Positions 621-62,772 of a stretch of 64,000 nucleotides of DNA are shown here, one piece after another. A program made the translations under genes and the position numbers. The stretch's first letter is position 1. Each line of letters begins with the position of its first letter. Location of the stretch: contig OX419756.1 in NCBI GenBank assembly GCA_948567375.1, forward strand, positions 315,001 to 379,000, read 5' to 3'. Source of the DNA: Lunularia cruciata. Its lineage: Eukaryota; Streptophyta; Marchantiopsida; Lunulariales; Lunulariaceae. Under the pieces are notes generated by a model that was not told the DNA's origin, searched no databases, and worked only from the letters and a program-made list of their open reading frames with translations.

Positions 621-3200
621 CTACCCCATTCTAATGTTAACCTCCTCATTGGCTTTCAATCCCAATGATCTTCTTTTCACTTCTCCTTCTTTGGGTATAT
701 CTAATTCTAACAAATCCTTCACTTTTTCTACTTCTTCTACACTAGGAACTACAATTGAGCTCTTGGGTAACTCTTCTATCTCCTTATCTCCTGACCCACT
801 CTTCTCTAATGTCTCAAATAACAAGTCCAAAGACACCTGAATTCCTACTTGTACAACATTGGACTTTCTCTCCTCTGTCATACTTCTCCTAATTCTTTCT
901 AACTTTGACTTGACTAAATCTAATTTGAGACTGACATTGTCTCCTACTTGTAACATTTTCTGATCTACTCGCTCTTTTAATTGGATATGTAAAGTGTTTA
1001 TATCCATATCTTTGGCTTTCCTCTTCTGAGTTTCATGCACAAGCAACTTTAACTCGTGTAGACATGCTTCTTCCAACCTTCCTTCAGCCTCCGTGCTCAA
1101 GATTGCTTGCAACTTTCTGGCAACTTCTCCTATTGATTCCAACTCATACCCTCGAGATTGCTCTACCTTCAACTCTTTGCAATACATCTTCAACTTGTCT
1201 TCATACTCAGCAGCGAGCATATTGAGAACTATGTAAATCAACACTTTGTACCAACTCGTGCAATTTTTCTTCTTCTCGATGCTTGACTGCCAACTCTCTC
1301 TGCCATGCTTGATCCTTCCCGGCTGCACTTTTCCTCAAGCTCTCTAACTCCTGCTCCATTATTAGATTGAGAACTCTGTAACTTAGAGAACTTTGTACCA
1401 ACTCGTGCAATCTTTCTTCTTCTTGATGCTTGACTGCCAACTCTCTCTGCCATGCTCGATCCTTCCCGGCTGCACTTTTCCTCAAGCTCTCTAACTCCTG
1501 CTCCATTATTGCTACCATTGCCTTCACATGAATACTCTTGATGTGCAGCACATCACTGACCTCCTCTTTCATCTTGGTCAGCAACATCGCCTGCGCCTTC
1601 AACTCTTTGGCGTGCTTTTGCATTTCCTTACATCTTGACTCAAAATTCTCTTGCAAATTCTCAAAAGTCTTCTTCTTCAAGACTGCATCCACCCAAAGTT
1701 CTTCAACTTCCTTGTCTCTTCGGGTTGCACGCTCTTGCAAACCCTTCACTTCAACCAACAGATACTTCACCACCTGCAACTCATTTGTCACCTTCATACG
1801 ATCTTGGGGAATTACCTTTTGGTGCTTCTTCAATAGTTCCAACAATGGAGTGACAACCTTTGATAGATACTATATTCCCCCAAAGTTCTCTTCATCTTTG
1901 GCCTCATCTTTGTACTTTGCCTCTCCCATCAGCTCCTTCTGCCTAAGTCGTGATCTTTGTATCTTCAGCAACACTGCTTACGAGCTTCCTTCTTCCTTAC
2001 CTACTGAACTCGGTCCCGCAAGGTACTCCTTTTGTCTTTCAGCCCCCTTCTCTTCCACAACCAAGGCTACTCAATGATTCATCTTTCTTGGTACACTATC
2101 AATCATCACATGACAAGCTTCATCCACTTCTTCTTCTCCAACCAATTGCTGAACCTCGTGTTCACCCTCACTCTTCCTTCCAGATTCCTCACTTTGTAAA
2201 GTGAGTTCGGCTTCTTTTGAGTCCTCTTCTCTAGACTCTGTCTCTCCTTCAGACTCGGTTTCTGATGGTGCTTCTTTCACCATCTTCTTACTCTGCAGAA
2301 CTAGTCTTCGGGTCTTCTTTTGTGCTGGAGGCAACTTTGCTTCTTTGGGTTTATTGTGCTTCTTCTTCTTTGGGCTTGTGACTTCTTCCATCTTCTGTTG
2401 TCCCATCCTCAAGAAGTGATCATCATTGGCTCGCAAGTGTGCCATGTATTGTTGCTCTTCTTCATTTGCTTCCCGTCTCAAATCAAGATGGAAATGCAAC
2501 ATCATGCGACACCTCTCCTCTGCTGTCAGCAAGTTCAACCCAAAGTAGAAGTGTGCTGCAAACGGTGTGAAATAATGTGGATGCAAACTTGTCCTCTAAT
2601 AGACCACCATCTGCCTTGTTTGTTGGTGAAAACACTTTGCCCAGTTCACCTTCACTCTTGCAAACATCTAGTGGAAAAAGACCGCTTGCTGTATGTTCAC
2701 ACAAGTCATTCGTTCTGGTTTGAACATGGCCATTATCATCCCCATGATACATTGTTTAATCAAGTCCCAATAGGACTCCACCTTGTAACCATTCATTGTG
2801 CACGGAGCAAATAACAAATTTTGTATGTCTGTAATCTCTTTTGCAGTATCACACTTCCAATATAAGGTGATCCATATTGGTTCTCATGCTTCCTTCTCCA
2901 ACACTAACCTCCAATCAAGCTCAGTCCATCGAGCTAGATTTCCTCTCTTCCCCTCAACTTTGGGGCCTTCCTCGCAATTATTGGCAGCTATCTCTACCAT
3001 GACTCTTGGGAAATTGAAATTCTAGTTCCATGCTAAGAAGGTAATACAAAGTCTATTCAAGACTTCAATCCTTGCTATGATATCCAACCTACAAATTGCA
3101 AAACCTTGCACTGCCAGAGCGTTTGTGACTTTCTTTGCCATGATTTTCTCTCTTGTTCTTCAGCACTAGAAGACTATTCCTTCTCCTGGACGAGACACTC
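621..3200 (-). pseudogene. LTR-encoded coiled-coil protein, copy A (decayed)
   Basis: Minus-strand remnant of the long BigLTR LTR reading frame. The best pieces are 2071-2586, which contains the conserved FAAHFYFGLNLL block (usual form FAAHFYLGLNLL) followed by a Lys/Glu-rich middle; 1207-1845, coiled coil; and 621-1328, the C-terminal end finishing at a TAG at 621-623. Several stops and frame changes separate the pieces, and the N-terminal start cannot be placed. The coiled-coil part carries an in-frame tandem duplication near 1220-1510 that the other copies lack. The function is unknown. The value of this copy is that the same protein is still recognisable in an old, divergent LTR. Confidence 0.65.
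1220..1510 (-). repeat. Tandem duplication of about 147 bp within the LTR coiled-coil frame
   Basis: Two adjacent units, roughly 1220-1365 and 1366-1510, share the plus-strand strings TTTGTACCAACTCGTGCAAT and CTTCCCGGCTGCACTTTTCC. The period is 147 bp (TTTGTACC at 1245 and 1392), or 49 codons, so the reading frame is kept. The encoded repeat carries MEQELESLRKSAAGKD. It is absent from the other LTR copies. Confidence 0.8.
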
Positions 3201-3699
3201 TAACCCCTTTTGGATTTTGGAAAATTTCACTCTCAATTGGCTTCTTGACATGCATTACTGCAGGATGACTACTCAAAGGGATAGGAAATCTACTTGTCAT
3301 ATTCAACTTGCTCCTGTGCAATCGCAATTTTATATTACCCCAAATTGTAGTCATTCTTTAGTCAATTTCAAAATCGACTTCCCCTTCTTATGCATGTTGC
3401 TATCCTGTCATTGTCAAGACAAGCTTCTTCTGCCTCGGCCGTTTTTGAAGTGTACTTTCTTGCCACGTACAAAGGTTGTTAGATTGGCCTTTGCTTCTTG
3501 ATTTGAAGATGATGCTCTTTGGACTTGTTTCTTTGTACTCCTCTCTTGAGTACCTCCCTCATCGGATCCAAAGTCGACTTCTTTGGATTTCCTCCAAAGA
3601 CACTCCCGTCCATTCCTTCTTTTGCAATTCAGCTTTCTTGCTTACTTCTTCTCCAAATGCTAATTAAATAGAAAAAAAAATAAAAATATAGGCACCACA

Positions 3700-11331: not shown

Positions 11332-11744
11332 TGTGACAACCTAGCAAATATCACTTTTTGTGGTGCCCACATTTTTTGTTTTTTCAGAATAAAGGAGAAG
11401 AAGTGTATAGAGAAGTCGGATTGTGCCTGTATGGCTAAAGAAGGTGAAGAAAAGAGTCTTCGGGATGAAACCCAAAGTAAAGTGACTTTGGGTTAGAAGG
11501 CAAAGTACTCGGAAATGCCTTGTCAGCATACAACCCAAAGTAAATTGTCTTCGGATTGGGGGGGAGCTCAACCCGAGGCGAAGATAGTCTTACAACCTTT
11601 TGTCAGGGCAAGACATTCAAGAAATGGCCGTTTGAAAACCTACGGCTCATACGCACGAAGGTTGATTGACAATGATAGGTGCATGCTGGAGGTGTGATTT
11701 CTTGGTAGGAACTCGAAGTGACGGAAGACGAAGAAGCACAACTC

Positions 11745-11752
11745 TATAAAAA
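11745..11752 (+). promoter_or_regulatory. TATA box conserved in BigLTR LTRs (copy C)
   Basis: TATAAAAA inside the string CTCTATAAAAATC, about 385 bp into the LTR and about 27 bp before the ATG of the LTR frame. The same string is kept at the equivalent place in copies B, F (both LTRs) and I. It is a good candidate LTR promoter. Confidence 0.65.
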
Positions 11753-11771
11753 TCAAACTTGCAATGAAAAA

Positions 11772-14345
11772 ATGTCGAGCAATTTTCCTTTGCCGTTGAG
11801 GAGTCGTCTTGCAAGTGATCGGGAAAAGGGAAATAGAGTTAGACTTGTGTTAGTGCGTAAGGGAGAAGTCGCAAGAGTGAAATCAAGAGAGAGTGAGAAG
11901 GTAGAAGAGATGGGAGGAGGGAAGAAGAACTCCAAATTTGCAGTGAGAAATCATGCAATTCGGAGGTTAGACGTGATAGCAAGGATCGAAGTCTTGAGCT
12001 GACTTTGGATCACATTTTTTGAATGGAACTGGAATGTAAGTTTTCCAGGATTCATGACAGAAATCATCAAGAGTAAGTGTCTCGATGGACCCGAGGAAGA
12101 GGGGAAGAGAGGAAATCCACCTCATTGGACAGAGTTGGATTAGAGACTTGTACTCGGGAAGGAAGTAGGCTCGAAGCAGGGGGCCACGTTCTTGGGAAAG
12201 GGAGAGATAGCTCAAGAGACCCAGGAGGTGAGAGATGCTTTCTCATCAAAACGGACAAAGAATGGGTACAAGGTTGAGAGCTACAAAGACCCTATGAAGA
12301 GAGGGATCGTGAGTGCTTTGATGGCTATCCTAAAGCCAGAGAGAACCACTTATGTGATGAAACACCAAGCGGTGTTCTTCCATAAGTTGTTTGCAGGAGA
12401 ACCAATCAATTGGGCGAGGTGTTTTCATGGGAGAACGAGGCAGATGGTGTGGAATTTGCGGGATAAGTCGCCTCCACATTACATTGTGCCGTTTGCAGCA
12501 CACTTCTACCTCGGGCTCAATTTGCTGAACTCGGCGGAGCGGACTTGGATGGTGTCGCACTTCCATCCTAATGTGCAAAAGGAGGTCAATGTCGAGGAGT
12601 TGCAATACATCTTGCAGATCAAGAGCACCAATGACTACTATGCACAGATAGGGAAGAACGTGGAGGTTGCAGTGAGTACCCCAACAAAGAAGAGAAGTCG
12701 GCAAGGTGAAGCCGAAGAAAGCAAGAAACCTCGGAAGATGTAGAGAAGTAACCCGAGGCAAGGAATGGTGGTGATTGAGTCGGAGGATGAAGACTAAGAA
12801 GAAGATGCCGAGCTCAAAACGGAAGACTTGGAACACAAGGAGGAGCCAGAGCTAATGTTGTAGAGTGGAGGTACGAGCAGCGATAGTGATGAAGGTGGAG
12901 AGATGACATTGGCGCCAGCGGCTGAAGAATACGAAGAAGAAGTGCAAACCGAGTTGGAAGCCGAAGACAACACACCGCTAGAAGACGAAGTAACTGTGCC
13001 CGAGGAAAAGAAGATCATTGTACAGCAAGGAGTTTGCTTGCGACGTAAGGCAAAGTGTGAAGCGGCGCCAAGTAGAGTGAAGGAAGAGGTAGAAGAAAGC
13101 TTGGGCAGTGAGGCGTCAATTCCGATATGAAGACTGCAGAGAAGAAGGCGAGTATTGGGAGAACACAAGGAGAGAAGAGAGACCACTACGCAGGATGGAG
13201 TAGTTGCCAGTGATGGAGTGGAGTACCTGCTAGAGGTAGTGTGCCCATTGTTGGTGAAGTTGGAGCACAAGAAGAAGGAGATGAGGACGACTTGTCCAGA
13301 GGTAAAGACTATATTGCAGGTGGTAGCGAGATTAGAAGAAGAGAACTCGGAGTTGAAGAAGAATGTAACCCAAGGTGAGGAGGAAAGGGAAGTACTACGA
13401 GCGGAGGCAATAGAGAGAAGTCAGGTAATTGAAGACCTGAAGAGGGAAGTGAGTTATTGAGAGGATCTTGCAAAGAAGAGTGACATAGCAAGGGAGAGAC
13501 AAGTAGCTGAATATGAAATCTTGAAGCAGCAGTTTGCTGATTCAAGAGTAGAACTTATCCATGCTATGGCAAGGGTAGCAGCGAAGGATCAAGAGCTCGA
13601 TAGAGTGATGGAGAGCATGGAAGAGAAGTAACAACTTTGCCAAAGAGAGTTGGCTGCACGGTATAGGGAAGAAGAGAGATTATGAGAGTTACTTTGTAAT
13701 CAGGAGGAGAAGGTGGTATAGAAGGAGAAGGAGAAGGAGACGGTGAAAGCCGAGTTCAAGGCAGAGTTGGCAATGTACCAAGAGGAATGGCTTGCAGATC
13801 GGGAATGAGAAAGGAAGACAAGATTGGAGCCATTGAAGGAGATTATCCTCAGGGTGAAAGCAATGTTAAGTACAGAAGCCAGCGTTCAAATTGAAGAAGC
13901 GAGACTACACGAGTTGAAGTTGTTGGTGCAAGAGACAAGGCAAAGACAAGCGATGGATACAGATATGAACGCCTTGCTGATTAAGTTAAGAACTCGTGTA
14001 GATAGAAAGATTTTAGAGGTAAAGGATAACATTTCAATTAGATTAGACTTAGTGAAAATAGAGCTAGAAAAACTTTGGAAGGATGTTAGAGCAAAACCCA
14101 AAGTAGATAACATAGGAGTCCAAATGTCTTTGGAGTTGCCATTAGAGACATTAGAGAAGAGTGGGTCGGGAGATAAGGAGTTAGATAGATTACCCACTAG
14201 TGAAATTTCAGATCAGGAAAGAGAATTGCTAGATCTGGTAGGAGAAATAGAAGATATGAAACCCGAGGACAGAGTAGTAAGAATTAAGATTACTTCGGGT
14301 TTGGGTTTGAAAGCTGAGGAAGAAGTAGACATCGGATCGGATTAG
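11772..14345 (+). pseudogene. LTR-encoded 857-residue coiled-coil protein, copy C
   Basis: From the ATG at 11772 (MSSNFPLPLRS) to the TAG at 14343-14345 one frame holds for 858 codons with no frameshift. Only in-frame stops break it, at about 12000, 12138, 12741, 12795, 12861, 13128, 13458, 13629, 13683, 13719 and 13806; most fit single C-to-T or G-to-A changes from codons kept in other copies. Residues about 1-300 look globular, with conserved blocks AWNWNVSFPGFM (in other copies), MKHQAVFFHKLF, MVWNLRDK and FAAHFYLGLNLL. About 300-480 is very rich in Glu/Asp/Ser. About 480-790 is heptad-like coiled coil; the C-terminal tail is acidic. No known enzyme motif is seen. An alternative start is the ATG at 11909. 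Function is unknown. Confidence 0.8.
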
Positions 14346-15138
14346 TAACAGATTTGAGATTTGAAGAGGCAGATATGAACAGGTGCATTGTCATTTAGGA
14401 TCTGCAAGTTAGAAGAGTTGTTGTAGAACATTATAGTTGTTAGAACTGTCGATTTGTTCACTATTTAAGAGTGGCATTCGCAGTCAAATGTTGTTCAATG
14501 CTCATAATTTCTGAGAATAGATAAAGCAAAGTGCTGTGAAGCAGTGCTCGTCGCTTGAGCTTGATTCCGAGTATCAACTTTGTGTCTATGTTTGTGAGTG
14601 TTTGGAGAAATTCGAAGTGCAAGTTAGTGTGCTTGTTGGATGTTGGATTCTGCAGCCTTGATCTTCATTTTGTGTGTTTGATCCCGAGTGAAGTGCAATC
14701 GAAGCAATGCCTTGACAGATCTGAGAGGAATTGTAGTGTTGGTAGTATTCTGCATTTGTGAGTGCAGTGCAAAGTTGATGTGAAGCAATTTTGATCAAGG
14801 AAGTTGTGCCTTCAGTGGAAGGGTAGAACACAATTCTGAGGCAAAGTCATTTTGCAGTGAAGTGCCATTTTTGGGAGAGCCTGAATCATCACAATCAAGA
14901 TTGTTTGGAAAGAATTGAAGGATTTGTGATTAGGGAGTGTTAAATCATGACAATACTGTGGATCAGTGCTTGTTACTCTCTTCTGGGTGTGGTTTCTACC
15001 TGAGAGATTAAAGACACAACCAAGAAGAACTGAAATTGTTACTTTGCTTTGTATTTGACCAATTCTGACTCGTATCTCTGCGGGAACAAACTTTACTTAC
15101 CCGATTACTGCAAACGTGATATTTGCCGGGTTGTCACA

Positions 15139-15143
15139 CTTTT
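15139..15143. repeat. Target-site duplication CTTTT, right copy
   Basis: Matches CTTTT at 11354-11358 on the other side of solo LTR C. Confidence 0.92.
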
Positions 15144-15884
15144 GCAGTAATTGGGTAAGTAAAGTTAGTTCCCGCATAGATACTAGTCAAAAATGTCAAA
15201 AAACAAAGCAAAGTAACAATTTAGTTCTTCTTGGTTGTGTCTTTAATCTCTCAGGTAGAAACTACACCCAAAAGAGAGTAACAAGCACTGACTCGCAATT
15301 TTGTCACAAATTAACACTCTTTAATCACAACTCCATCAAATCTTTCCAAACAATCTTGACTGTGATGATTCAAGCTCTCCCAAAAATAGCACTTCATTGT
15401 GAAATGACTGTGCCTCAAAATTGAGTTCCACCCCTCCATTGAAGGCACAACTTTCTTGATCAAAATTGCTTCACATCAACTTTACACTGCACTCACAAAT
15501 GTAGAATACTACCAACACTACAATTCCTCTCAGATCTATCAAGGCATTGCTCCAATTGCACTTCACTTAGGATCAAACACACAGAGTGAAGATCAAGGCT
15601 GCGGAATCCAACATCCAACAAACACATTGACTTGCACTTTGAAATTCTCCACACACTTGCAAACACAAGCACAAAGTTGATACTTGGAATCAAGCTCAAG
15701 CAACAAGCACTACTTCATAACACTTTGCTTTATCTATTCTCAGAAATAATGAGCACTGAACAACATATGACTGCGAATGCCATTCTTAAATAGTGAATCA
15801 AACAATACCATTCTTCAACAACTCTTCTAACCTACAGATCCAAAATAACAATACACCTCTTCATATCTTCAAATCTCAAAACTG

Positions 15885-18486
15885 TTACTTATCAAATCCA
15901 ATGTCTACCTCAACTTTGGCTTCCAATCCCAATCCCAAAGTAACTTCACTCACTACTACTCTATCCCTGGGTTTCACAACTCCTAATTCCTCTACTAATT
16001 CTACTACTTCTCTTTCCTGATCTGCAATTCCACTAGTGGGTAACCCTTCTAAACCTTCATCTCCCAACCCACTCTTCTCTAACATCTTTGATGGTAACTC
16101 CAAAGACATCCGCACTCCTATGTTATCTACTCTGGGTTTTGCTCTTACATCCTTCCAAAGTTTACTATCTCTAATTTCACTAAGTCTAATCTAATTGTGA
16201 TATTGTCTTCTACTTCCAATATCTTTCTATCTACACTAGTTTTGAGACTGATGAGTAAGGCATTCAAATCCTTATCCTTTGCATTTCTCCTCCTTGTCTC
16301 CTGCACTAACAACTTTAACTTGTGTAGTCTCGTTTCTTCAATGTGCATGTTGGCTTTTGTACTCAGTATCACATTCATCTTGACCACAATCTCCTTTAAT
16401 GGATCCAATATCCAATTTTCCTCTCTTGTTCTTGATCTGCAAGCCAATCTTCTCTGTACATTGCCAATTCCGCTTTGAACTCGGCTTTCATAGTTTCCTT
16501 CTCCTTCTCCTTCTCCTTTTGCAAAATCTTCTCCTCTTGATTGCGAAGTAATTCTCTCAACCTTTCTTCCTCTCTTTATCTCATTGTCAACTCTCTTTGC
16601 CATAGCTACTTCTTCTCTTCTACACTCTCCATCACTCTATCAAGCTCTTGCTCTTTCTCTGCTACTCTTGCCATAGCATGGATAATTTCTAATCTCAAAT
16701 CAGCAAACAGCTGCTTTAAGATTTCACACTCAGCTACTTGCCTTTCCCTTGCTATGTCATTCCGTTCTATGAGTTCCTCTCTATTCCTGACTTCTCTCTT
16801 CAAATTCCCAATCACTTGATTCTTTACTACTGCATCTACTCGTAGTACTTCCCTTTCCTCCTCACCTCGAATTATACTCTTCTTTAATTCCAAGTTCTCT
16901 TCTTCTAGTCAAACTAACACCTGCAATACAGTCTTTACCTAGAGACACTTTGACTGCATCTCCTTCTTTCGGTGCTCTAACTTCACCAACAATGGGCACA
17001 CAACCTCCCACAAATAATAGACTTCTTCACTTGCATGCATTTTGACTCACGGACTTATCTCCTTCTTCACCTCTTCCTCACTTGACACTCGCCTTCTAAG
17101 CCGCAATTGACTTATAAGTATGGATTCTTTGCTCCCCAAATTTCCATCCTCCTCTTCTCTTACCTTACTTGGCCCCGCTCTATACTTTGCCTTTTGTTTG
17201 GACCAAACTCCCCTTTGATTTGTAACTCTTTTCTCCTCTTACTCTGGAACTTTGTCTTCCAGTTTTGAGTTACTTTTCTCCTCCATCTCCATCTTGGCTT
17301 CCTCTTCTTTGGGTACCAATTTCATCTCTACTCCATCATCGCTGTCACTACTCGTGTCTCCACTCTACAATGTGAACTCGGGTTCTTCCTCCCTCTCTGG
17401 ATCTTTGGACTTGCACTCAACTTCTCCTTCCAATTCTTCTTCCGATGACACAATTACCACTAGTTCTTTCCTTGGGTTTACCCTTCTAGCTTTCTGAGGT
17501 CTTGCTTTCTCTACTTCTTCTTTTCCTTGTCGACTACTCTTCTTTGACTATGGAGTACTCACTTCTAACTGCACACTCTGCCCCATCTGCATGTAGTACT
17601 CATCACTGCTCTTGATCTGAAGAATGTATTGCTGCTCCTCCGCATCAACATCTCTTCTTAAGTCAGGATGGAAATAGGACACCATCTTATTTTGCTCCAC
17701 CACATTGAGCAAGTTCAGCCCCAAATAGAAATGGGCTGCGAACGGCACAATGTAATGTACCCACAACTTGTCCCGCAAATTCCACACCATCTGTCTCGTC
17801 CTCCCATGAAGACACTTTGCCCAGTTAATGGGCTCTCCTACAAACATCTTATGGAAGAACACCGCTTGGTGCTTCATCACATAAGTCATTCTCTCCGGCT
17901 TCAAGATTGCCATTAGAGCACTCACAATCCTTCTCTTGACAGGATCCTTGTAGCTCTCTACTTTGTAACTATTCTTTGTGCGCTTTGAAGAGAAGGCATC
18001 TCTCACTTCTTGAGTTTCTTTGGCTACTTCTCCCTTCTCTAAGAATGTGGCACCATGCTCTATGCCTGCTTCTCTCTCGAGTACTAACCTCCAATCCAAC
18101 TTTGTCTATCAAGTCGGATTTCCTCTCTTCCCTTCTTCCTCAGGGCCATCAAGACACTTACTCTTGATGATCTCAATCATGAACCCTGGAAAGCTAACAT
18201 TCCAGTTCCATGCCAAGAATGTGATCCAAAGCTTGCTCAAGACCTCAATTCTTGCAATCACATTTAACCTCCAAATTGCATGATTTCTCACTATGAAATC
18301 AGAGTTCTTCTTCCCTCCTCCCATCTTTCTCTCTTCCACTCTAGGCTGGGGACTATTCTTCCTATTGATTCCCGGATTAACTCTCTTGATTTCCTCTTGA
18401 CACACCAGCGCGTCTTTGACTCTACTTCCCTTCCCATGATCTCCTATAGGACAACTTCTTAATGGCGATAGAAAATTGCTTGTCAT
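15885..18486 (-). pseudogene. LTR-encoded coiled-coil protein, copy B (decayed)
   Basis: Minus-strand frame from the ATG at 18486 (MTSNFLSPLRS) to the TAA just below 15888. The N-terminal part 18109-18486 and the conserved block region 17548-18099 (MKHQAVFFHKMF, MVWNLRDK, FAAHFYLGLNLL) are open; the acidic middle and coiled coil (16606-16893, 16145-16603, 15885-16115) are broken by stops and frame changes. The span is not a multiple of three, so at least one indel is present. Its ancestry is the same as in copy C, with independent lesions. Confidence 0.75.
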
Positions 18487-18502
18487 CGCTTTGTCTAGTC
18501 CG

Positions 18503-18511
18503 ATTTTTATA
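18503..18511 (-). promoter_or_regulatory. LTR TATA box, copy B
   Basis: The minus strand reads TATAAAAAT about 20 bp before the ATG at 18486, at the same place as in copies C, F and I. Confidence 0.6.
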
Positions 18512-18893
18512 GAGTCGTGCCTTCTCTATCTTCTTCAATTTGAGTTTTTACCGAGAAATCACACCTCTTGCATGCTCCTGTCACTGTCAAGAGTCCTTCA
18601 CACGTATGACCGTCGTATTTGAACAATCCCTTCTTGAATGTCTTGCCCAAAGGAAAGTTGTTACACTATCTTCACCTTGGGTTGAGCACCCCCAAGACAA
18701 AGACTCCTCACTTTGGGTTGTATGCTGATAGGGCAATTCTGAGTACCTTGCCTTATGACCCGAAGTCATGTTACCTCGGGTTTCATACCGAGGACCCTTT
18801 TCTTTGCCTTCTTTGGCCATACAGGCACAATTCAACTTCTTTGTACACTTCTTCTTCAAAATTTGAGAAAAAAACAAAAATGTGTGTACCACA

Positions 18894-26081: not shown

Positions 26082-27120
26082 TGTGACAACCTGGCAAATA
26101 TCACTTTTGCGGTAATCGGGTAAGTAAAGTTTGTTCCCACAGAGATACGAGTTGGAAATGTCCAAATACAAAGTCAAATAGTAACATGTAGTTCTTCTTG
26201 GTTGCGTCTTTAATCTCTCAGGTAGAAACCACACCCAAAAGAGAGTAACAAGCACTGATTTGCAGTCTTGTCACAAAGTAACACTCCTTAATCACAAATC
26301 CATCAAATCTTTCCAAACAATCTTGATTGTGATGATTCAGGCTCTCCCGAAAATGGCATTTCACTACAAAACGACTTTGCCTCAGAATTGTGTTCCACCC
26401 CTCTAGTGAAGGCACAACTTCCTCAATCAAAATTGCTTCACATCAACTTTGCACTGCACTTACAAATGCAGAATACTACCAACACTACAATTCCTCTCAG
26501 ATCTGTCAAGGCATTGCTTTGATTGCACTTCACTCAGGATCAAACACACAGAATGAAGATCAAGGCTATGGAATCCAACATCCAACAAACACACTGACTT
26601 GCACTTCAATTTCTCCAAATACTCACAAACATAGACACAAAGTTGATACTCGGAATCAAGCTCAAGCAACGAGCACTGCTTCACAACACTTCACTTTATC
26701 TATTCTCAGAAATAATGAGCATTGAACAACAAAATACTGCGAATGCCACTCTTAAATAGTGAATAAATTGACAGTTCTAACAACTATACCGTTCTACAAC
26801 AACTCTTCTAACCTGCAGATCCAAAATGACAATGCACCTCTTCATATCTGCCTCTTCAAATCTCAAATCTATTTCTACTACGATCCGATGTCTACTTCTT
26901 CCTCGGCTTTCAAACCTGAACCCAAAGTAATTTTACTTCCTACTACTCTATCCTCGGGTTTCACAACTAATTCCTTCACTAATTTTAACATTTCTCCTTC
27001 TTGATATGAAATTCATATCATAGTTAAGCCTTCTAAATCTCTATCTCCCAACCCACTCTTCTCTAAAGTGTCAAATATCAAATCTGAAGACACCTACACT
27101 CCTATCTCTGTTACTTCAGG
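26082..27120 (-). mobile_element. BigLTR LTR fragment D (3' third, minus)
   Basis: Starts on the plus strand with TGTGACAACCTGGCAAATATC at 26082, the standard 3' LTR terminus, and follows the other LTRs for about 1040 bp, including the conserved ACTATTTAAGAGTGGCATT string (minus strand, near 26745-26765) and the last ~80 codons of the LTR frame (stop near 26878). Similarity fades near 27110-27140, where chromovirus sequence takes over. Confidence 0.85.
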
Positions 27121-27149
27121 TCTAACTACTATCAATTCCTTTTGATAGT

Positions 27150-29745: not shown

Positions 29746-30131
29746 TGTGGTGCCCACATTTTTGTTTTTTTTCAGAATAAAGAAGAAGAAGTGTATAGAG
29801 AAGTTGGATTGCACTTGTATGGCCGAGGAAGGCAAAGAAAAGAGTCTTCGGGTTGAAACCCGAAGTAAAGTGACTTCAGGTCATAAGGCAAAGTACTCAG
29901 AAATGCCATGTCAGCATACAATACAAAGTAAATTGTCTTTGGATTGGGGGGAGCTCAACCAGAGGCGAAGACAGTCTAACAACCTTTCGTCGGGGCGAGA
30001 AATTCAAGAAGGGGCCGTTTCAAAACTGGCGGCTCATACGCGCAAAGGTTGATTGACAGTGACAGGTGCATGCCGGAGGTGTGATTTCTTGGTAGAAACT
30101 CAAAGTGACGGAAGACGAAGAAGTGCAACTC

Positions 30132-30140
30132 TATAAAAAT
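30132..30140 (+). promoter_or_regulatory. LTR TATA box, element F 5' LTR
   Basis: TATAAAAAT, 387 bp into the LTR and 19 bp before the ATG at 30159. It is conserved in all LTR copies that reach this far. Confidence 0.65.
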
Positions 30141-30158
30141 CAAAATTGCAACAACGAA

Positions 30159-32730
30159 ATGTCGAGCAATTTTCCTTCACCGTTGAGGAGTCATCTTGCA
30201 GGTGATCGGGGAAAGGGAAATAGAGTTGGGCTCATGTTAGTGCGCAAGGGAGCAGTTGTGAGAGTGAAATCAAGAGAAAGTGAGAAAGCAGAAGTGATGG
30301 GAGGAGGGAAGAAGAACTCCAAATTCGTAGTGAGAAATCATGCGATTTGGAGATTAGATGTAGTAGCGAGGATCAAAGTCTTGAGCCGACTTTGAATCAC
30401 ATTTCTAGCATGGAATTGGAATGTAAGTTTTCCAGGATTCATGACAGAAATCATCAAGAATAAGTGTCTAGATGGACCTAAGGAAGAAGGGAAGAGAGGA
30501 AATCCGGCTTGGTGGACAGAGTCGGATTGGAGATTGGTACTTGGGAAGGAGGCAAGCTCGGAGTAGGGAGCCACGTTCTTGGGGGAAAGGAGTGATAGCT
30601 CAAGAAACTCAGGAGGTGAGAGATGTCTTCTCGTCAAAGAGAACAAAGAATGGGTACAAGGTAGAAAGTTACAAAGACCCTGTCAAGAGAGGAACTGTGA
30701 GTGCTTTGATGGCAATCCTGAAGCCAAAGAGAACAACATATGTGATGAAACACCAAGCGGTGTTCTTTCACAAATTGTTTGCAGGAGAACCAATTAATTG
30801 GGCGAGGTGTTTTCACGAGAGAACAAGGCAGATGGTGTGGAATCTGAGGGATAAGTCACCTCCACATTATATTGTGCCGTTTGTAGCGCATTTCTACCTG
30901 GGGCTCAATTTGCTAAACTTAGCGGAGTGGAATCGGATAGTGTCGCACTTCCATCCGAATGTGCAAAAGGAGGTCAATGTCGAGGAGCAGCAATACATCC
31001 TGCAAATCCGGAGCACGGACAATTACTACGCGAAAATAGGGAAAAACGTGGAGGTCGTGGTAAGTACCTCGACAAAGAAGAGGACTTGGCAAGCAGAAGC
31101 CGAAGAAAACAAGAAACCTCGGAAGATGCAAAGAAGTAACCCGAGGTGAGGAATGGTGGTAATTGAGTCAGAAGATGAAGACTCAGAAGGTGAGGCCGAG
31201 CTCAAGACGGAGGACTCGGAGCATGAGGAGGAACCTGAGCTTACACTGCAGAGCGGAGATACGAGCAGTGATAGTGAGGACGGTGGAGAAATGACCTCGG
31301 CGCCAATGGCTGAAGAATACAAAGAAGAAGTGCAGGCCGAGGTAGAAGCCGTAGACAATACAGCGCAGGAAGACAAAGTACCAGTGCCAGAGGAGAAGAA
31401 GATTACAATGCAGCGAGTAGTTTGCTTGCGACGTAAGGCAAAGTGTGAGGCGGGACCAAGTCGAGTAAAGACGGAGGTAGAAGAAAGCTCGGGCAGTGAG
31501 GCATCAATCCTGATACAAAGACTCCAGAGAAGAAGGCGAGTATCGGGAGAACACGAGGAGAGAAGAGAGACCCCTCCGCGGGAGGAAGAAGTTGCCAATG
31601 ATGGAGTGGAGTACTTGCGAGAGGTAGTGTGCCCGCTGCTAGTAAAGTTGGAGCAAAAGAAGAAGGAGATGCAGTCGACTTGTCCCAAGGTAAAGATTGT
31701 ACTATAGGTGGTAGCAAGATTAGAAGAAGAGAACTCGGAGTTGAAGAGGAGTGTAACCCCAGGTGAGGAGGAGAGAGAAGTATTGCAAGCGGAGGCAGTC
31801 AAGAGAAGTCAGGTAATCAAAGACCTGAAGAGAGAAGTGATCTATCGAGAGGATCTTGCGAGGAAGAGTGATATTGCAAGGGAAAGACAAGTAGCTAAAT
31901 CCGAAATCTTGAAGCAGCAGTTTGCTGATTCAAGAGTAGAGCTTATCCATGCTATGGCGAGGATAGCATTGAAGGATCAAGAGCTCGATAGAGTGATGGA
32001 GAGTATGGAGGAGAAGAAGCAACTCTGGCAACGAGAGTTGGCTGCAAGATATAGAGAAGAAGAGAGATTACGAGAGTTACTTCGTAATCAAGAAGAGAAT
32101 GTTGAACAGAAGGAGAAAGAGAAGGAAGCGGTGAAAGCCGAGTTCGAGGAAGAGTTGGCAATGTACAGAGAGGAATGGCTTGCAGATTGGGAATGAGAAA
32201 GGAAGACAAGATTGGAGCGATTGAAGGAGATAGTCCTCAGAGTGAATGCGATGTTAAGTATAGAAGCTAGTGTTTGAATTGAAGAAGCGCGTCTGCACGA
32301 GTTGAAGTTGTTGGTGTAGGAGATGAGGCAAAGACAAGCGAAGGACACGGAGATGAATGCCTTGTTAATAAAATTAAGAACTTGTGTAGATAGGAAGGTG
32401 TTGGAAGTAGAGGATAATATTTCTATTAGATTAGACTCAGTGAAGGTAGAGCTAGAAAAACTTCGAAAAGATGTTAAAGCAAAACCCGAAGTAGATAACA
32501 TAGGACTCCATATGTCTTTGGAGTTGCCATCAGAGATATTAGAGAAGAGTGGGTCAGGAGATAAGGAGTTAGATAGATTACCCACTAGTGAAATTTCAGA
32601 TCAGGAAAGAGAATTGCTGGACTTGGTAGAAGAAGTAGAAGATTTGAAACCCAAGGAAAATGTAGTAGGAAGTAAGATTACTTCGGGTTTGGGTTTGAAA
32701 GCCGATGACGATGTAGACATCGGATCGTAG
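30159..32730 (+). pseudogene. LTR-encoded coiled-coil protein, element F 5' LTR
   Basis: ATG at 30159 (MSSNFPSPLRS) to TAG at 32728-32730. It is open to a TGA at 30393-30395 (CGA-type or TCG-type codon in relatives), then continues; one extra G in the GGGGG run near 30583-30587 shifts the frame, after which one frame holds to the end with stops at 31147 (CGA to TGA), 31705 (CAG to TAG), 32194 (CGA to TGA), 32275 and 32317. Open pieces 30594-31149, 31153-31707 and 31708-32196 show the globular blocks, acidic stretch and coiled coil as in copy C. The N-terminal half includes YKVESYKDPVKRG and MKHQAVFFHKLF. Confidence 0.82.
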
Positions 32731-33531
32731 TGGTAACAGATTTGAGATTTGAATAGACAGATATGAAGAGGTGCATTGTCATTTCGGATCTGCAGGTTAG
32801 AACAGTTTTTAGAACGGTATAGTTGTTAGAACTATCAATTGCTTCACTATTTAAGAGTGGCATTTGCATAGAATTGTTGTTTAGTGCTCATTATTTCTAA
32901 GAATAGATAAAGCGAAGTGCTATGAAGCAGTGCTCGTCGCTTGAGCTTGATTCCGAGTATCAACTTTGTTTCTATGTTTGTGAATGTTTGGAGAAATTCG
33001 AAGTGCAAGTCAGTGTGTTTGTTGGATGTTGGATTCCGCAGCCTTGATCTTCATTCTGTGTGTTTGATCCTGAGTGAAGTGTAATTGAAGCAATGCCTTG
33101 ACAGATCTGAGAGGAATTGTAGTGTTGGTAGTATTCTGCATTTGTGAGTGCAGTGGGGAGTTGATATGAAGCAATTTTGATCGAGGAAGTTGTGCCTTCA
33201 GTGGAGGGGTAGAACACAATTCTGAGGCAAAGTCATTTTGCAGTGAAGTGCCGTTTTCGGGAGAGCCTGAATCATCACAATCAAGATTGTTTGGAAAGAT
33301 TTGATGGATTTGTGGTTATGGAGTGTTAATTTGTGACAAGACTGCGAATCAGTGCTTGTTACTCTCTTTTGGGTGTGGTTTCTATCTGAGAGATTAAAGA
33401 CGCAATCAAGAAGAACTAAATTGTTACTTTGCTTGGTATTTGGCCAATTCTAACTCGTATCTCTGCGGGAACAAAGTTTACTTACCCAATTACTGCAAAA
33501 GTGATATTTGCCAGGTTGTCACATGATTTTT

Positions 33532-33550
33532 TGGCACCGCTGCCGGGGAT
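33532..33550 (+). other. Primer binding site, tRNA-Asp type (element F)
   Basis: TGGCACCGCTGCCGGGGAT, 8 bases after the 5' LTR end. From knowledge of plant tRNA-Asp(GUC), whose 3' end gives TGGCGCCGTTGCCGGGGAT as complement, 17 of 19 bases match. Athila and several Tat-group elements use this primer. The same site is at 61485-61503 in element I. Confidence 0.85.
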
Positions 33551-33612
33551 ACAAATCTCGGAAGTGGAAGAATATGAATCCAAATTGGAAATTGGGTAGC
33601 AACGCAATATGA

Positions 33613-33936
33613 ATGTCTGCATTGAGAGAACAACGGGAGGAGAGAGCTCAAAGACGAGCACTTCAGCGTGAAGAAAACAAACGTCTAAACGTCCCATCCA
33701 TCGTTGACGAAACTGAACGAGAGGCGTTAGAGTTTCAACTTCTTCACAAAGTGCAAGAAGCCCTGCGAGAACTTGACCACAAGAAACTTGAAGGCGGTTG
33801 GAAAGGCTACTTCACATCTCCCTCTTCTTCCAAGAAGAAGAAAGAATCAAGTGGGCAAACATATGCATTGCGGCCTAGTACACCAACTTCCCCTAGACCT
33901 GTAAAGGAAGTTGTTTCCTTGAAGACCTTTGTTTGA
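33613..33936 (+). CDS. Short frame upstream of gag, or gag N-terminus (107 codons)
   Basis: ATG at 33613 (MSALREQREERAQRR) to TGA at 33934-33936. The product is strongly charged, basic and acidic at the start, with a KKKKESS patch and a Pro/Thr/Ser-rich end. Element I has the same frame (61422-61099) ending in TGA at the identical codon. The frame is in register with gag downstream, so either this TGA is an inherited lesion, or the piece is a separate small protein, or the stop was read through. An intact remainder starts at the ATG at 33988. Confidence 0.55.
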   Translation: MSALREQREERAQRRALQREENKRLNVPSIVDETEREALEFQLLHKVQEALRELDHKKLEGGWKGYFTSPSSSKKKKESSGQTYALRPSTPTSPRPVKEVVSLKTFV

Positions 33937-36000
33937 GAAAAGACAGCAAGAACACTTACTGAAGACGAGTGTCAACATCTTCTATGAATGATTCCTCGGT
34001 TGTCCCGAAGGAATTTTGAAGAACCAATCAAAGGTGTTGATCCTGAATCTTCCACTAGGGTTGAAGTCAACACCCTCATAGCAGAAATTGTCAAAGAAGA
34101 CCCCACCTTGAACTTGACAAATTGGAATCCCTGGGCTGACAACACGGTGTCAATTCCAGCCAATCCTTCAGTTCTGTCAAGTTCCACATTACCTCAGCCG
34201 ATCCCAGTGCATCAAACGATGACTTTGCTTCTTGTCACCCGACACGCCTATCAGAAGTACAAGGGGACAAAACAAGACGAAGACCCCGATGAATTCATCA
34301 AAGAATTTGAAGTCATCTCCTTCGCTAACAAGGAGTATGACTCGGCGGATCGATTGAGAATTTTCCTAAGTTTGCTCCGCAAGAAAGCTCGGAGCTGGTA
34401 CACCCATGTGATCCAGAAGGGGTTTGTACCAGCAGACTGGGCAGACTTGAGAAACAACTTCCTGGAACGATTCCGGGAAGTTGATTACGATACGAGTGTC
34501 TTCGCGGCACTCAACAATTTGGACCGTGGCAAGAAGGAGAAGTTGAGAGACTACTCCGAGCGGTTCATGGCACTACTAAACTGAGTTCCCAAGCAATCGG
34601 GGGTGGTGGGTTACTCCAATGCTCAAGCCATTACCTGGTTCCTCAGGGGCCTTTCACCGGAGATACGAATCTTTGCCAGGGAGAGGAATGTAACTTCCCT
34701 GGACAAAGTACTCAAACATGTCGCTCGTTATGAAGCGGCCCACTTTCACTCTGCCGGTAACTGGAGAAATCGGGAGAAGAAAGGCAAGAAGCCTAAAAGA
34801 AGAGCTTCGTGCAGTACCTCCCCTTCTTCGGACGAATCTTCCATGACTTTGAGCTCTTCTTCGGAATCCGAAGAAGAATCCAAGCCAAGACGAGTCAAAA
34901 GACGTGGAGGCAAGAAACCAGTGACTCCTGCAGCCAAGAGTGTACATAAGGCGGATACAAAGCTGGATGCTCTCATCAAGGAGTTTTTGGATTTCAAGAT
35001 CCAGATGATTGGGGCCAAGGGCCAAAGGAAGGCCCTAGCATTTGGACGATCTAATGTGTGGTGCACCGCATGTGGCAAATCTGGCCACGCCAACACAGAA
35101 TGCAATACTTGTAATGCATTCCCGGTGCAGCAAATTGATTGGGTTCCGGGATGGACTCAAGACGAGGACGAGGAGGCTGTGTACCAAACTCAGGAGGTAC
35201 AGCCTCAAGCGAGCACATCGTATCAAAGTCCGAGGTTTGGACCTAGGGAGTATAACCCCAATGCTCCTCCACGAAGACCACCATTGAGCAACCAAAATCG
35301 GCCTCAGAATGTTGCACCCGAAGCCTGTTATAATTGTGGCTCGATGGGACATTGGTCCCCAAACTGTCTCGAGCCAAGAAGGCAAATTGGGTACGTTCCT
35401 CTGTGCGGAAACTGTAAAGGATCGGGGCATACGGGCAACCAATGCCCTCACCCACCAAACCCAAAGCCGCCTGTAAAGTATGTACAGACCCCCGCTGAGC
35501 GTGTAACACTTCAGCCAAAGGGGGATACAAATGTAAATTGCATAACTCTTGAGGAAGAAAGACCTCAAGAAGGGAGTCCGGCCTCAGAAGGAGAATGGCC
35601 GGATCTTGAAATTTTGAAGGTTGAGACATGCTCCAACAAGAAGAAGCGTGATCTCGAAGAACTGAGTATGACCTTGTCGTCCTCCCAAAAGGCAAAGAGA
35701 CTTTGCCCAAAAGCCATTCTTTCGGCCAAGGAGGAAAAGATCCTCGCAAAAGCCAAAGCTAAAGCCTTGCAAAAAGAATTAAAGGAGGCATTACTCAGGA
35801 CTCGGGAACTGAGTTTGGAAGAAGAGACGAAGACGAAGTCTCCAATTTTTCCGGCAGACATTCGATCCGAAGTAAAGGGTCTGATCCAAGCCGAGGTGGG
35901 CCAACCCAAGGAACCTCGGGTTAAGGCCATCAGCAAGCCCGTCACCATTTTGAAGCATCCCAAAGTCAAGAGGGAACATGGGGAGACTTCGGATCCAAAG
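33937..36000 (+). pseudogene. Gag polyprotein with three CCHC zinc knuckles (element F)
   Basis: Same frame as 33613. A capsid-type gag domain lies at about 34210-34600 (DEFIKEFEVISFAN, ARSWYTHVIQKG, WADLRNNFLERF, KLRDYSERFMALLN). A basic/Ser-rich linker (KPKRRASCSTSPSSDESS) follows. Three knuckles of form C-x2-C-x4-H-x4-C sit at 35062-35103 (CTACGKSGHANTEC), 35326-35367 (CYNCGSMGHWSPNC) and 35404-35445 (CGNCKGSGHTGNQC). A long Lys/Glu-rich linker leads to the protease. Stops: TGA at 33985-33987 (CAA in element I) and TGA at 34582-34584 (CGA in element I). Family role: forms virus-like particles and binds element RNA. Three knuckles are more than the usual one. Confidence 0.88.
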
Positions 36001-36860
36001 TCAAAGACAAAGATGGTCAAATTGGGAGGAGTTCCCCAATATGATATTATAGCCGATCTGGCCACCACAAATGCCAACGTTACATTCATGCAATTGTGGG
36101 AAGATAACAAGCTATACAAGAGACAGCTTAATTCGGCCCTCAAGAAGGTGAGGTCGATGTCAAAGAAGGACCTACCGGCTATTTATCGTATTGAACAAGA
36201 AGATTTGGGATCTCCCGAGGTAGATGCGGAGATTGCAGGGTGCATGATCACATTGATAGCCATTGACTCTGGGTCCGGTGTGAATGTCATGACCAAAGAT
36301 AATGCAAATCGACTCGGGTTTCATATGTTTGAACCCACACCCCGAGTTTGGAAGTTTGCAGACCAAACCAGGAGACGGCCATTGGGCATGCTGTTGAACA
36401 TTACCACGATCTTGGAGGGGTACCCTTCAAGTTGAATTACATCGTGTTGTGACAAGTGACAAAAACTGGTTACCCTTTGTTGATTGGCAGACCCTGGTTA
36501 TACAGTGCCCAAGTTGTAGTAGATTGGCATCACCAGAAGTTAAGATTCAAGGACATTTTGTCCGAAGATCAGAAGCTAGTGACTATGAGTTGGATGAAGG
36601 TTCCCCATCTTGGGGAAACAAGTTTGTCGGAAGAGGAGGACGAATCCAAAGACTCATCGTCTTCGTCCTCAAACGAATCCGAAGACGAAGTCCAAGTTAA
36701 TTACTTGGAATGCTACGAGGTGGATGTTGAAGACGAAGATCCATATGACCTCGCCTCGGGTGAACCTAACTTGGAGGAAGGGGGTTTGATGGCCACTTGC
36801 TTTGGGTGAAGCCGAGTAACCCACGTTGAAGGAGTCATCAACCCCGATGACTGTCAAGAT
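36001..36860 (+). pseudogene. Aspartic protease region (element F)
   Basis: IAIDSGSGVNVMTKDNANRLG with the catalytic D-S-G at 36265-36273 lies in one frame with gag, so gag and protease were made as one polyprotein. A one-base indel near 36415-36425 ends the frame at 36435 (the GVPFKLNYI of element I is out of register here). The next frame (36456-36809) gives TGYPLLIGRPWLYSA, the usual close of the domain, then an acidic linker (EEEDESKDSSSSSSNESED). A TGA at 36807 breaks the link to RT. Confidence 0.85.
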
Positions 36861-37770
36861 GTGTTACTAACTGAAGGAAAAATTTTAAAAATCTCAAAGA
36901 CAGTTACTTCGGAGGAGTTGGCAGGATACATTGCCCTGTTTATAGAGTTCCAGGATGTATTTGCCTGGTCGATTGATCAAATTCCGGGTATTCCACGAGA
37001 ATTTGGAGAACACTGGATTGATCTGGTTGAAGGTGCAATTCCGGTTTGGCAACGACAATACCACCTGAACCCGAAGTACTCGCTTTTGGTGAAAGATGAA
37101 ATCAACAAGTACTTAGGGGCCGGAATCATCTTCCCTGTCTTGAGCAGTGAATGGGTCTCCCCCATCGTCATTGTCCCAAAGAAGAAAACAGGGAAGATCT
37201 GAGTGAGCCAAGACTTCCAAAAGTTGAACGCAGTTACAAGGAAAGATCATTATCCCTTGCCTTTTATTGATACAATTTTAGATCAGGTAGCTAGGCATCC
37301 TTGTTATAGTTTTCTCGATGGATTTTTAGGGTACAATCAAGTATCCATTCGAGAAGAGGACAAGGATAAAACTACATTCACGACCGATTGGGGCACTTTC
37401 GCTTACAATCAAATGCCCTTTGGGTTGTGTAATGCTCCTGCTACTTTCCAGCGGATGATGAATTCAATCTTCAAAGATTTCCTGCGCAAATTTGTGGAAG
37501 TTTTTATTGATGACTTTTGTGTGTTTGGGCGAAGAGATGTACATTTAGATTACCTTCGCCAAACGTTTGAATGGTGTCATTTTGCCGACTTGTCATTACA
37601 CCCGGAGAAATGCTTCTTCGCAATGAAGGAGGGAATTCTTCTGGGGCATCAGGTGTCAAGCCGAGGTATTGAAGTCAATGTTGAGAAGGTTAAGATAATC
37701 GCAGCTTTGGAATCCCCAAAGAACATCCGGGAGCTGAGAGCCTTCTTGGGACATGTCTATATTTCAGCCG
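36861..37770 (+). pseudogene. Reverse transcriptase (element F)
   Basis: Blocks in order: GAIPVWQRQYHLNPKY, WVSPIVIVPKKKTGKI, then TGA at 37200 where element I has CGA (GKIRVCQDFQKLN), DFQKLNAVTRKDHYPLP, YSFLDGFLGYNQVSI, MPFGLCNAPATFQRMM, FIDDFCVFG with the catalytic D-D at 37509-37514, and LSLHPEKCFFA, ILLGHQVSSRGIE, IRELRAFLGH. The FLDGF.GYNQ and FIDDF forms are those of Athila/Tat-like elements, not chromoviruses. A frameshift near 37760 (deletion after RAFLGHV) ends the frame. The enzyme makes cDNA primed by the tRNA. Confidence 0.9.
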
Positions 37771-38280
37771 CTTCATGTCAAACTATGCAGTGCTTGCTGT
37801 ACCACTCACAAAGCTTCTGAAGAAATCCGAAGACTATCTATGGGAAGCAAGTCAAGAAGAAGCTTTCCAGGTGTTGAAGAAGAAACTGGTTGAAGCACCA
37901 GTCATGAGAGCCCCAAATTGGGATGTCCCTTTTCATGTATATGTGGACACTTCGTCCATGGCCATCGGAGTAGTCTTAAGTCAAAAGGACGAGAAGAAGA
38001 AGGACTACCCGGTGTAATATGCCAACCGACAACTTTCAGTTTCTAAAAAGAACTATTCAACAATTGAAAGAGAAGCACTCGGAATGGTGTATGCCTGCAA
38101 GAAATTTCGTCATTATTTGTTGGGGTATGAGTTTGTCTTCTATGTTGACCATTACGCATTGCAACATTTGGTCAAGAAGGCAGATTTATCGGGATGAATT
38201 GCAAGATGGATCTTGTTATTACAAGAGTTCACGTATACTCTACAAGTAAGGAAGGGAGCTTCGCATTTGAATGCGGACTT
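37771..38280 (+). pseudogene. RNase H domain (element F)
   Basis: NYAVLAVPLTKLLKKSEDY then PFHVYVDTSSMAIGVVLSQKD, with the first catalytic Asp in VDTS; TAA at 38015 stands where relatives have TAC/TAT of VYYA (GTGTAATATGCC). KNYSTIEREALGMVYACKKF (catalytic Glu) and YVDHYALQHLVKKADLSG (Asp) follow in the next open stretches, with a TGA at 38197-38199 (CAA/CGG in relatives). The domain removes the RNA strand during reverse transcription. Confidence 0.85.
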
Positions 38281-39682: not shown

Positions 39683-39691
39683 GGGAGGGGG
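39681..39691 (+). other. Polypurine tract (element F)
   Basis: GAGGGAGGGGG, two bases before the 3' LTR start at 39694. It primes plus-strand DNA synthesis. It overlaps the integrase stop codon by two bases, so nothing is encoded between integrase and LTR. The equivalent in element I is 50928-50938 (minus). Confidence 0.88.
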
Positions 39692-40078
39692 TATGTGGTG
39701 CCCACATTTTTGTTTTTTTCAGAATAAAGGAGAAGAAGTGTATAGAGAAGTTGGATTGTGCCTATATGGCCGAAGAAGGCAAAGAAAAGAGTCTTTGGGT
39801 TGAAACCCAAAGTAAAGTGACTTCGGGTCATAAGGCAACGTACTCGGAAATGCCCTGTCAGCATACAATACAAAGTAAATTGTCTTCGGATCGGAGGGAG
39901 CTCAACCTGAGGCAAAGACAGTCTAACAACCTTTCGTGAGGGCGAGAAATTCAAGAAGGAGCCGTTTCAAAACGGGTGGCTCATACGCGCAAAGGTTGAT
40001 TGACAATGATAGGTGCATGTCGCAGGTGTGATTTCTCAGTAGAAACTCGAAGTGACGGAAGATGAAGAAGTGCAACTC

Positions 40079-40087
40079 TATAAAAAT
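40079..40087 (+). promoter_or_regulatory. LTR TATA box, element F 3' LTR
   Basis: TATAAAAAT in the same context as in the 5' LTR, 19 bp before the ATG at 40106. Confidence 0.6.
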
Positions 40088-40105
40088 CGAAACTGCAATG
40101 ACAAA

Positions 40106-42677: not shown

Positions 42678-43081
42678 TGGTAATAGATTTGAGATTTGAA
42701 TAGACAGATATGAAGAGGTGCATTGTCATTTTGGATCTGCAGGTTAGAATAGTTTTTAGAACGGTATAGTTGTTAGAACTATCAATTGCTTCACTATTTA
42801 AGAGTGGCATTTGTAGAGAATTGTTGTTCAGTGCTCATTATTTCTGAGAATAGATAAAGCAAAGTGCTGTGAAGAAGTGCTCGTCGCTTGAGCTTGATTC
42901 CAAGTATCAACTTTGTGTCTATGTTTGTGAATGTTTGGAGAAATTCGAAGTGCAAGTCAGTGTGTTTGTTGGATGTTGGATTCCGTAGCCTTGATCTTCA
43001 TTCTGTGTGTTTGATCCTGAGTGAAGTGCAATTGAAGCAATGCCCGATTACTACAAAAGTGATATTTGCCGGGTTGTCACA

Positions 43082-43086
43082 AATTT
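43082..43086. repeat. Target-site duplication AATTT, right copy
   Basis: Partner of 29741-29745. Confidence 0.95.
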
Positions 43087-45937: not shown

Positions 45938-45962
45938 AACTAGTAGGAAGTAATCTTACTTC
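45938..45962. repeat. Inverted-repeat junction between LTR fragments E and G
   Basis: Arms AGTAGGAAGTAA (about 45943-45954) and TTACTTCCTACT (about 45957-45968) are perfect complements separated by two bases. The right arm is normal LTR sequence; the left arm is not found at this place in other copies and looks like fold-back filler. Confidence 0.7.
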
Positions 45963-50513: not shown

Positions 50514-50531
50514 TTTGTCATTGCAGTTTCG

Positions 50532-62762: not shown

Positions 62763-62772
62763 TACCGCCTTT

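Follow-up and report, generated by a model that had tools for sequence, protein, structure and literature searches.

Introduction

The long terminal repeats (LTRs) of retroelements are ordinarily non-coding, and the closest described departure is sag of mouse mammary tumour virus (MMTV), which the available text of PMC4667437 presents as a protein gene lying mostly in the U3 part of the LTR, present twice per provirus and retained in solo LTRs. The same text describes several sag promoters, one of them within the U3 of the 3' LTR, gives a one-ratio dN/dS (nonsynonymous over synonymous substitution rate) of 0.289, and counts 490 solo LTRs among 527 shortlisted sag contigs of MMTV-like viruses. 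Here we describe a long protein frame inside the LTRs of a Ty3/gypsy element from the plant Lunularia cruciata, found in a 64-kb window (the whole stretch of DNA analysed, positions 315,001 to 379,000 of contig OX419756.1, assembly GCA_948567375.1) and very probably maintained there by selection; all coordinates and strands below are window positions.

Accessory open reading frames (ORFs) of other elements offer further points of reference. In the accessible portions of the sources, the internal region is named as the site of additional ORFs (PMC11963269), plant ORFs that follow the polyprotein are speculated to be env-like (PMC6317226), and the CERV protein of Cer1 is required for nuclear export of genomic RNA (PMC10309623). 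A Transposase_32 domain, described as a relative of Athila ORF1 (PF03078), is reported from the 3' accessory ORF of sunflower Athila 14, which is predicted to be nuclear (available part of PMC11728184). The phrases 'in the LTR', 'inside the LTR' and 'within the LTR' do not occur in the accessible part of the review PMC7264820, and some published plant ORFs downstream of the polyprotein could themselves sit in LTRs. A preliminary description of the present DNA had called a protein gene in an LTR unusual, and rightly so: the literature searched, with subscription journals mostly outside its coverage, held no precedent for a gene inside plant LTRs, and sag of MMTV-like betaretroviruses was the sole precedent found for a gene in U3 (PMC4667437, as far as its available text goes).

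Results

Copy C of the frame (11772..14345, + strand) runs from ATG to TAG over 857 codons inside solo LTR C (11359..15138, +), with TGTGGTGCC at its start, TTGTCACA at its end and the target-site duplication (TSD) CTTTT on either side, at 11354-11358 and 15139-15143. The preliminary description had read it as one frame without a frameshift, and this stands, but copy C has 11 internal stops. The placement of the frame can be followed in the most complete element of the window (29746-43081, +), which is bounded by the 5-bp TSD AATTT and consists of a 5' LTR (29746..33523, +), a primer binding site (PBS; TGGCACCGCTGCCGGGGAT, 33532..33550, +), a 6.2-kb internal region (33524..39693, +) with gag, a zinc knuckle, reverse transcriptase (RT), RNase H and integrase, a polypurine tract (PPT; GAGGGAGGGGGTA, 39681..39693, +) and a 3' LTR (39694..43081, +) with a deletion close to its 3' end. 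Both LTRs carry the frame, at 30159-32727 and 40106-42674, which is the arrangement of sag and confirms the earlier statement that the gene lies in the LTR and thus twice in the element. The pol frame terminates inside the PPT, therefore leaving no space for an accessory gene ahead of the LTR, and the LTR-borne frame begins about 410 bp past the PPT, entirely inside the LTR. That the LTRs are genuine is shown by their termini (TGTGGTGCC...TTGTCACA), by a PPT preceding 3' LTRs and by a PBS following 5' LTRs; among 60 genome loci sampled as described below, the PPT stands immediately before the LTR in 11, including L001 (a window copy) and the diverged L035, L040 and L041. We regard the placement of the protein gene in the LTR as virtually certain.

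Paired LTRs with a TSD, the PBS, the PPT and the order gag, RT, RNase H, integrase identify the element as Ty3/gypsy. Single-frame translations of pol from two elements, both decayed, showed no chromodomain at E<=0.01, and a second, archaeal-type RNase H was not found in the internal region of the element, which is probably a non-chromovirus, Tat-like member of this group. Its PBS (TGGCRCCGCTGCCGGGGAT) may be of a tRNA-Asp-like type.

The host genome (565.8 Mb in 74 contigs) was searched for further copies. A first look gave 27,981 candidates, 79 of which were scored and gave a match; the best 30 of these 79 (L001-L030) retain a single frame throughout in 23 cases and carry at least one stop in all 30. 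With the Riccia sorocarpa protein discussed below as query, 68 places were found, of which 30 were fetched (L031-L060); for 20 of these 30 the best match to copies A, C and E is 35-52%. That every copy is broken, as had been stated earlier, is true within the window, where each is broken or partial, and does not extend to the genome: a fully open 874-codon frame was read in a solo LTR flanked by CACTT, one further place has an open frame of 857 with no stop, and an element with LTRs that agree at 97.6% over 2,428 bp has a 473-codon open stretch of the frame. Pattern counts, allowing up to three mismatches and giving zero for reversed controls, came to 11,175 LTR 3' ends, 1,770 LTR-PBS junctions and 1,554 PPT-LTR junctions. 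If an element contributes two ends and one junction, the excess of ends over PBS junctions places several thousand ends in solo or broken LTRs; the count of 3' ends is not a count of gene copies, as short derivatives may have the same end. Two pairs of 3' ends (G000 C1:14477395/14478911 and C1:14497468/14498984), each 1516 bp apart, perhaps represent such a short derivative.

Whether a change is private to one copy or shared among copies bears directly on selection. We compared single-base changes present in one copy with those present in at least three, over codons 47-857 of 35 copies (six from the window and 29 loci; copy A was dropped, as was L001, which is window copy I3). Private changes comprised 461 nonsynonymous (N), 283 synonymous (S) and 39 stop changes, as against 189, 243 and 11 among those in at least three copies (p=1.6e-9). 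Excluding CpG transitions, the N/S/stop counts were 427/259/37 private versus 90/158/6 shared (p=2.6e-12); transversions alone gave 264/92/25 versus 27/30/0, and non-CpG transitions kept the N/S contrast (163/167 private, 63/128 shared). The preliminary description had named a consensus filled with stops as evidence against a real protein, and the stop changes do not point that way: among the 35 copies most were private, 40 occurring in a single copy, 12 in two copies, 12 in between three and five, and none in six or more. The commonest shared stop, at codon 679, was considered as the true end of the gene and rejected, the codon being CGA in 12, CAA in 11 and TGA in 7 of 30 loci; it looks like a recurrent decay site.

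Insertions and deletions (indels) give the same picture with an internal control. In 33 copies aligned to copy C, with the non-coding part of the same LTRs as control, distinct indels common to at least two copies numbered 0 of 48 in the coding part and 17 of 52 in the non-coding part (p=3.9e-6). Pairwise dN/dS (Nei-Gojobori, eight long copies) lay between 0.13 and 0.31 in all 27 pairs when the LTR pair of element 29746-43081 was left out, well away from the value near 1 that had been named in advance as contrary to a selected protein. Over codons 311-857 that LTR pair gave 0.34, versus 0.13-0.31 in all 24 unsaturated pairs (three were saturated), and the dN/dS test lends modest support only, because the baseline set by the LTR pair is about 0.34 and not 1; this also lowered our confidence in selection and, slightly, in the account as a whole. 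Taken together, these patterns of change indicate that selection on the protein very probably preserved the frame as the element multiplied. The LTR pair itself (30159-32727 / 40106-42674) has 24 nonsynonymous changes and one synonymous change among its transversions, and its dN/dS near 0.34 is lower than free drift by a simple count; mutation bias is our guess at the cause.

Two sequences resembling promoters flank the gene. TATA box 1 (TATAAAA, 11745..11751, +) lies 27 nt upstream of the first ATG of copy C (ATG1), occupies a fixed position 383-387 bp into five window LTRs, and is separated from the frame ATG by 25-27 nt in the measured window LTRs and by 34 nt in copy A. The pairing of TATAAAA with an ATG 24-36 nt downstream is found in 50 of the 60 genome loci (28/30 in L001-L030, 22/30 in L031-L060), and both strands of the entire window hold only six such pairs. 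In L049 the aligned frame starts well downstream of the ATG linked to TATA 1. TATA-like box 2 (CTATTTAAG, 14461..14469, +) lies 3' of the gene and 677 bp ahead of the LTR end. With up to four mismatches in an 18-mer it is found in 30/30 of L001-L030, in copy A and in 7/30 of L031-L060, an estimated 19 of the 23 loci without it ending short of the expected position. The simplest reading is that TATA 1 would be the promoter of the gene and TATA 2 the genomic promoter; we consider it likely that the gene has a promoter of its own, and somewhat likelier still that it lies in U3 rather than in R.

The two ends of the frame differ from its body. Codons 1-46 look nearly unconstrained (pooled pN/pS, the ratio of nonsynonymous to synonymous differences per site, 0.62 versus 0.24-0.41 for stretches of codons 47-800), and 32 of 36 copies have ATG at Met47 (11910..11912, +). 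Translation may therefore begin at this candidate start, giving a protein of 811 residues instead of the 857 from ATG1; ATG1 is itself preserved as ATG in 34 of 36 copies. Codons 801-857 (14172-14342) also show a pN/pS of 0.62, but with a low pS (0.133), and the LTR 3' of the gene (14346-15138) is better conserved than the frame (0.87-0.89 versus 0.73-0.76 in pairs C/E and E/I3), as if DNA or RNA at the gene end and in the following LTR were under a second constraint or had a second role.

Along the predicted protein, a conserved domain at the N-terminus is followed first by a basic motif, next by an acidic stretch and then by a coiled coil. Residues 155-260 (12234..12551, +) form the most conserved N-terminal stretch, with a faint Transposase_32-like match in some relatives. 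They are followed by a bipartite basic motif (KKRSRQGEAEESKKPRK, 12687..12737, +), which we take to be like a nuclear localisation signal, by an acidic stretch with a net charge of -22 over residues 311-480, and by a coiled-coil-like region with 3.5-residue periodicity at residues 481-640 (13212..13691, +). In shuffling tests the heptad periodicity of residues 481-560 was reached by 0 of 1000 shuffles and that of residues 560-640 at 0.018; 3.5-residue periodicity was not significant at residues 640-760 and 700-857. The protein is perhaps nuclear and regulatory.

Searches for relatives had been proposed in the preliminary description, which could name no family, and they yielded one relative and one faint lead. 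A family profile run against a protein database, in which the 7,991 candidates with most shared words were scored, found the hypothetical protein R1sor_005561 of Riccia sorocarpa (P0002, 654 aa) at 2.6e-7. Its N-terminal domain is homologous to that of the LTR protein, a charged linker is common to both, and the C-terminal parts are weakly similar; identity is 26% over 186 positions. Single-sequence searches of the protein database, including one with residues 60-310 of copy C, found no relatives; Pfam gave no credible family for the open piece P0001, P0002, 11 + 25 members or 10 trimmed pieces; PDB sequences gave 0 matches, and 28 pattern matches in IMG/VR included 0 relatives. Athila ORF1 (PF03078) gave no match at E<=10, and its controls likewise gave no signal. 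A genome-wide scan with Transposase_32 (PF20167) gave seven weak places, the best at E 0.04 and none above the cut-off; six of the seven are the LTR-borne protein, one a diverged member at about 31%. Rescanned, the top two reached E 1.1e-4 and 5.5e-4 on overlapping parts of the profile, the best score (22.6 bits, E 1.1e-4) being below the curated cut-off of 45 bits, and these relatives were picked by the genome scan from a very abundant family. Kinship with Transposase_32 is thus a faint lead. Locus L066 is strongly diverged (about 31% to copy E) but still shows the N-terminal motif; it perhaps represents an older lineage of the same protein.

A protein-level search located ten frame copies in the window, which bears out the report of the same protein in other LTRs; the copy there called B was not identified, and the labels may differ. 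Beyond copy C and the two in element 29746-43081, these include the diverged copy A (633..3300, -), which has both TATA boxes and is 33.6% identical over residues 1-682, and copy E (15891..18486, -). The latter lies in LTR E (11332..18893, -), which is split by LTR C (11359-15138); a head-to-head palindrome of the two was rejected in favour of a nested insertion with its CTTTT duplication, the palindrome being only apparent because LTR C inserted into LTR E. Copy D (26881..27123, -) is a C-terminal remnant, and a partial copy lies at 45946..47043 (-). A further copy (43358-45917, -) lies in the LTR remainder that hosts the insertion of element 29746-43081 (43082..45931, -; its other part at 29220-29745, with TSD AATTT). 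The 3' LTR of a minus-strand element (47109..50925, -) holds a copy at 47905-50513 (-) with a 548-residue open stretch at 48614-50260, and the last copy (62307-62768, -) lies in an LTR remnant followed by a PBS (61511..62768, -) that is probably the 5' LTR of this same element.

Some other features of the window lie outside the LTR family or interrupt it. An insert with minisatellite-like arrays splits the integrase region of the minus-strand element (between 51491 and 55905), tandem arrays with units of 46, 80, 90 and 155 bp, among others, spanning 51886-55716. A 202-codon frame at 8199-8807, outside the described elements, matches reverse transcriptase PF00078, and a 1.5-kb inverted pair (5078-6609 / 23365-24866, 75% identity) is something other than this LTR.

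Discussion

On balance we favour the view that the frame is a sag-like accessory gene resident in U3, with its own promoter and a coiled-coil protein as its product, an account drawn from sequence. Under this proposal TATA 1, in a solo LTR as in either LTR of an element, would drive transcription of the gene, and TATA 2 would drive the genomic RNA, placing the gene in U3. The gene may derive from a 3' accessory ORF like those of Athila/Tat elements, and could have entered the LTR once plus-strand priming shifted to a purine tract on its upstream side; since the PPT marks the start of U3, such a shift would put the gene in the LTR. The protein would oligomerise in the nucleus and regulate or protect its own LTRs in trans, by transactivation or anti-silencing. 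A regulatory or anti-silencing role is a tentative suggestion. Equally tentative is the thought that these LTRs may be self-contained genes, with promoter, frame and downstream promoter in one 3.8-kb repeat, whose thousands of dispersed copies would form a trans-acting family able to control its mother elements.

Several observations weigh against this account. As to selection, CpG transitions show little contrast (N/S 34/24 private, or 1.42, versus 99/85 shared, or 1.16), stops among non-CpG transitions show no contrast between private and shared changes (p=0.47), and private transversions have an N/S of 2.87 where 5.74 is expected, which makes private changes an imperfect neutral sample. Indels in multiples of three are no commoner in the frame (12/48) than in the non-coding part (11/52). 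Pairs with the short copies D and J range from 0.21 to 1.22 in dN/dS (17 pairs), dS is saturated in several pairs involving copy A, and for the two LTRs of element 29746-43081 the ratio is 0.48 when every codon is counted and 0.32-0.37 without their frameshifted stretch, their transitions (N 44, S 46) falling below the simple neutral expectation (N/S 1.86). As to the promoter, both TATA boxes are consensus matches, an earlier out-of-frame ATG follows TATA 1 after 19 nt in three of five window LTRs, and TATA 1 is so near ATG1 that the mRNA may start at or past it. As to the protein, the functional reading rests on motifs, none of 46 further scans of members (sets of 11, 25 and 10, some sequences repeated) reached PF20167, and the AlphaFold models are poor (mean pLDDT 36.7 and 42.5).

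An accessory gene in U3 need not encode a regulator: the product could instead be env-like or structural, or could serve to export RNA or to assemble capsids. The env-like speculation about downstream plant ORFs (accessible part of PMC6317226), the requirement for CERV in Cer1 RNA export (accessible part of PMC10309623) and a coiled coil compatible with assembly all lend this some weight; the highly charged composition, with basic and acidic stretches, argues against an env-like or structural protein, and we hold the alternative to be unlikely. Also distinctly unlikely is that the frame lies in R, with TATA 1 driving a genomic RNA that carries the gene at its 5' and 3' ends and gag-pol expressed by re-initiation, splicing or internal entry. 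The canonical form and fixed place of TATA 1, kept in diverged subfamilies, would fit this, but TATA-like box 2 lies 677 bp ahead of the LTR end, the post-gene LTR is better conserved, as expected of R-U5, and R would exceed 2.6 kb. A host gene or passenger recently captured by one LTR family is very improbable: the lack of a comparable plant LTR gene in the literature searched speaks for it, whereas the frame and TATA 1 are common to diverged subfamilies, including the 20 of 30 loci at 35-52% at best, and copy A carries both TATA boxes. A frame owed to composition alone, open because purine-rich DNA has few stops and not because its product was selected, is rejected as the least probable of all, largely contradicted by the shared/private tests, the shared-indel contrast in the same LTRs and a Riccia relative of like architecture, even though all window copies are broken or partial, dN/dS is low in the LTR pair itself, and reverse frames in five of these LTRs reach up to 260 codons, which makes frame length alone weak evidence.

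As the gene lies in the LTR, solo-LTR formation can leave it behind, and what is usually counted as a regulatory scar, a solo LTR, can be an entire gene copy, which annotation presuming LTRs to be non-coding would overlook. A PPT shift suggests a simple route by which an accessory gene could enter an LTR, and should the protein act on its own LTRs, it would open a direct test of what plant accessory ORFs do.

The nearest plant comparison is the 3' accessory ORF of Athila, likewise a sense ORF after pol and linked to the LTR protein by the faint PF20167 match in some relatives; it is reported as a 3' accessory ORF, with its LTR placement unstated in the available text, whereas the present frame lies past the PPT and its match is far below the cut-off. 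The closer parallel in arrangement is betaretroviral sag of MMTV, which shares a gene in the LTR, two copies per element and persistence in solo LTRs. There the host element is an animal retrovirus, whereas here it is a plant Ty3/gypsy element with a frame of 857 codons wholly in the LTR, and the likeness described here is one of arrangement; a long selected gene with its own TATA box in plant LTRs would be convergent with sag.
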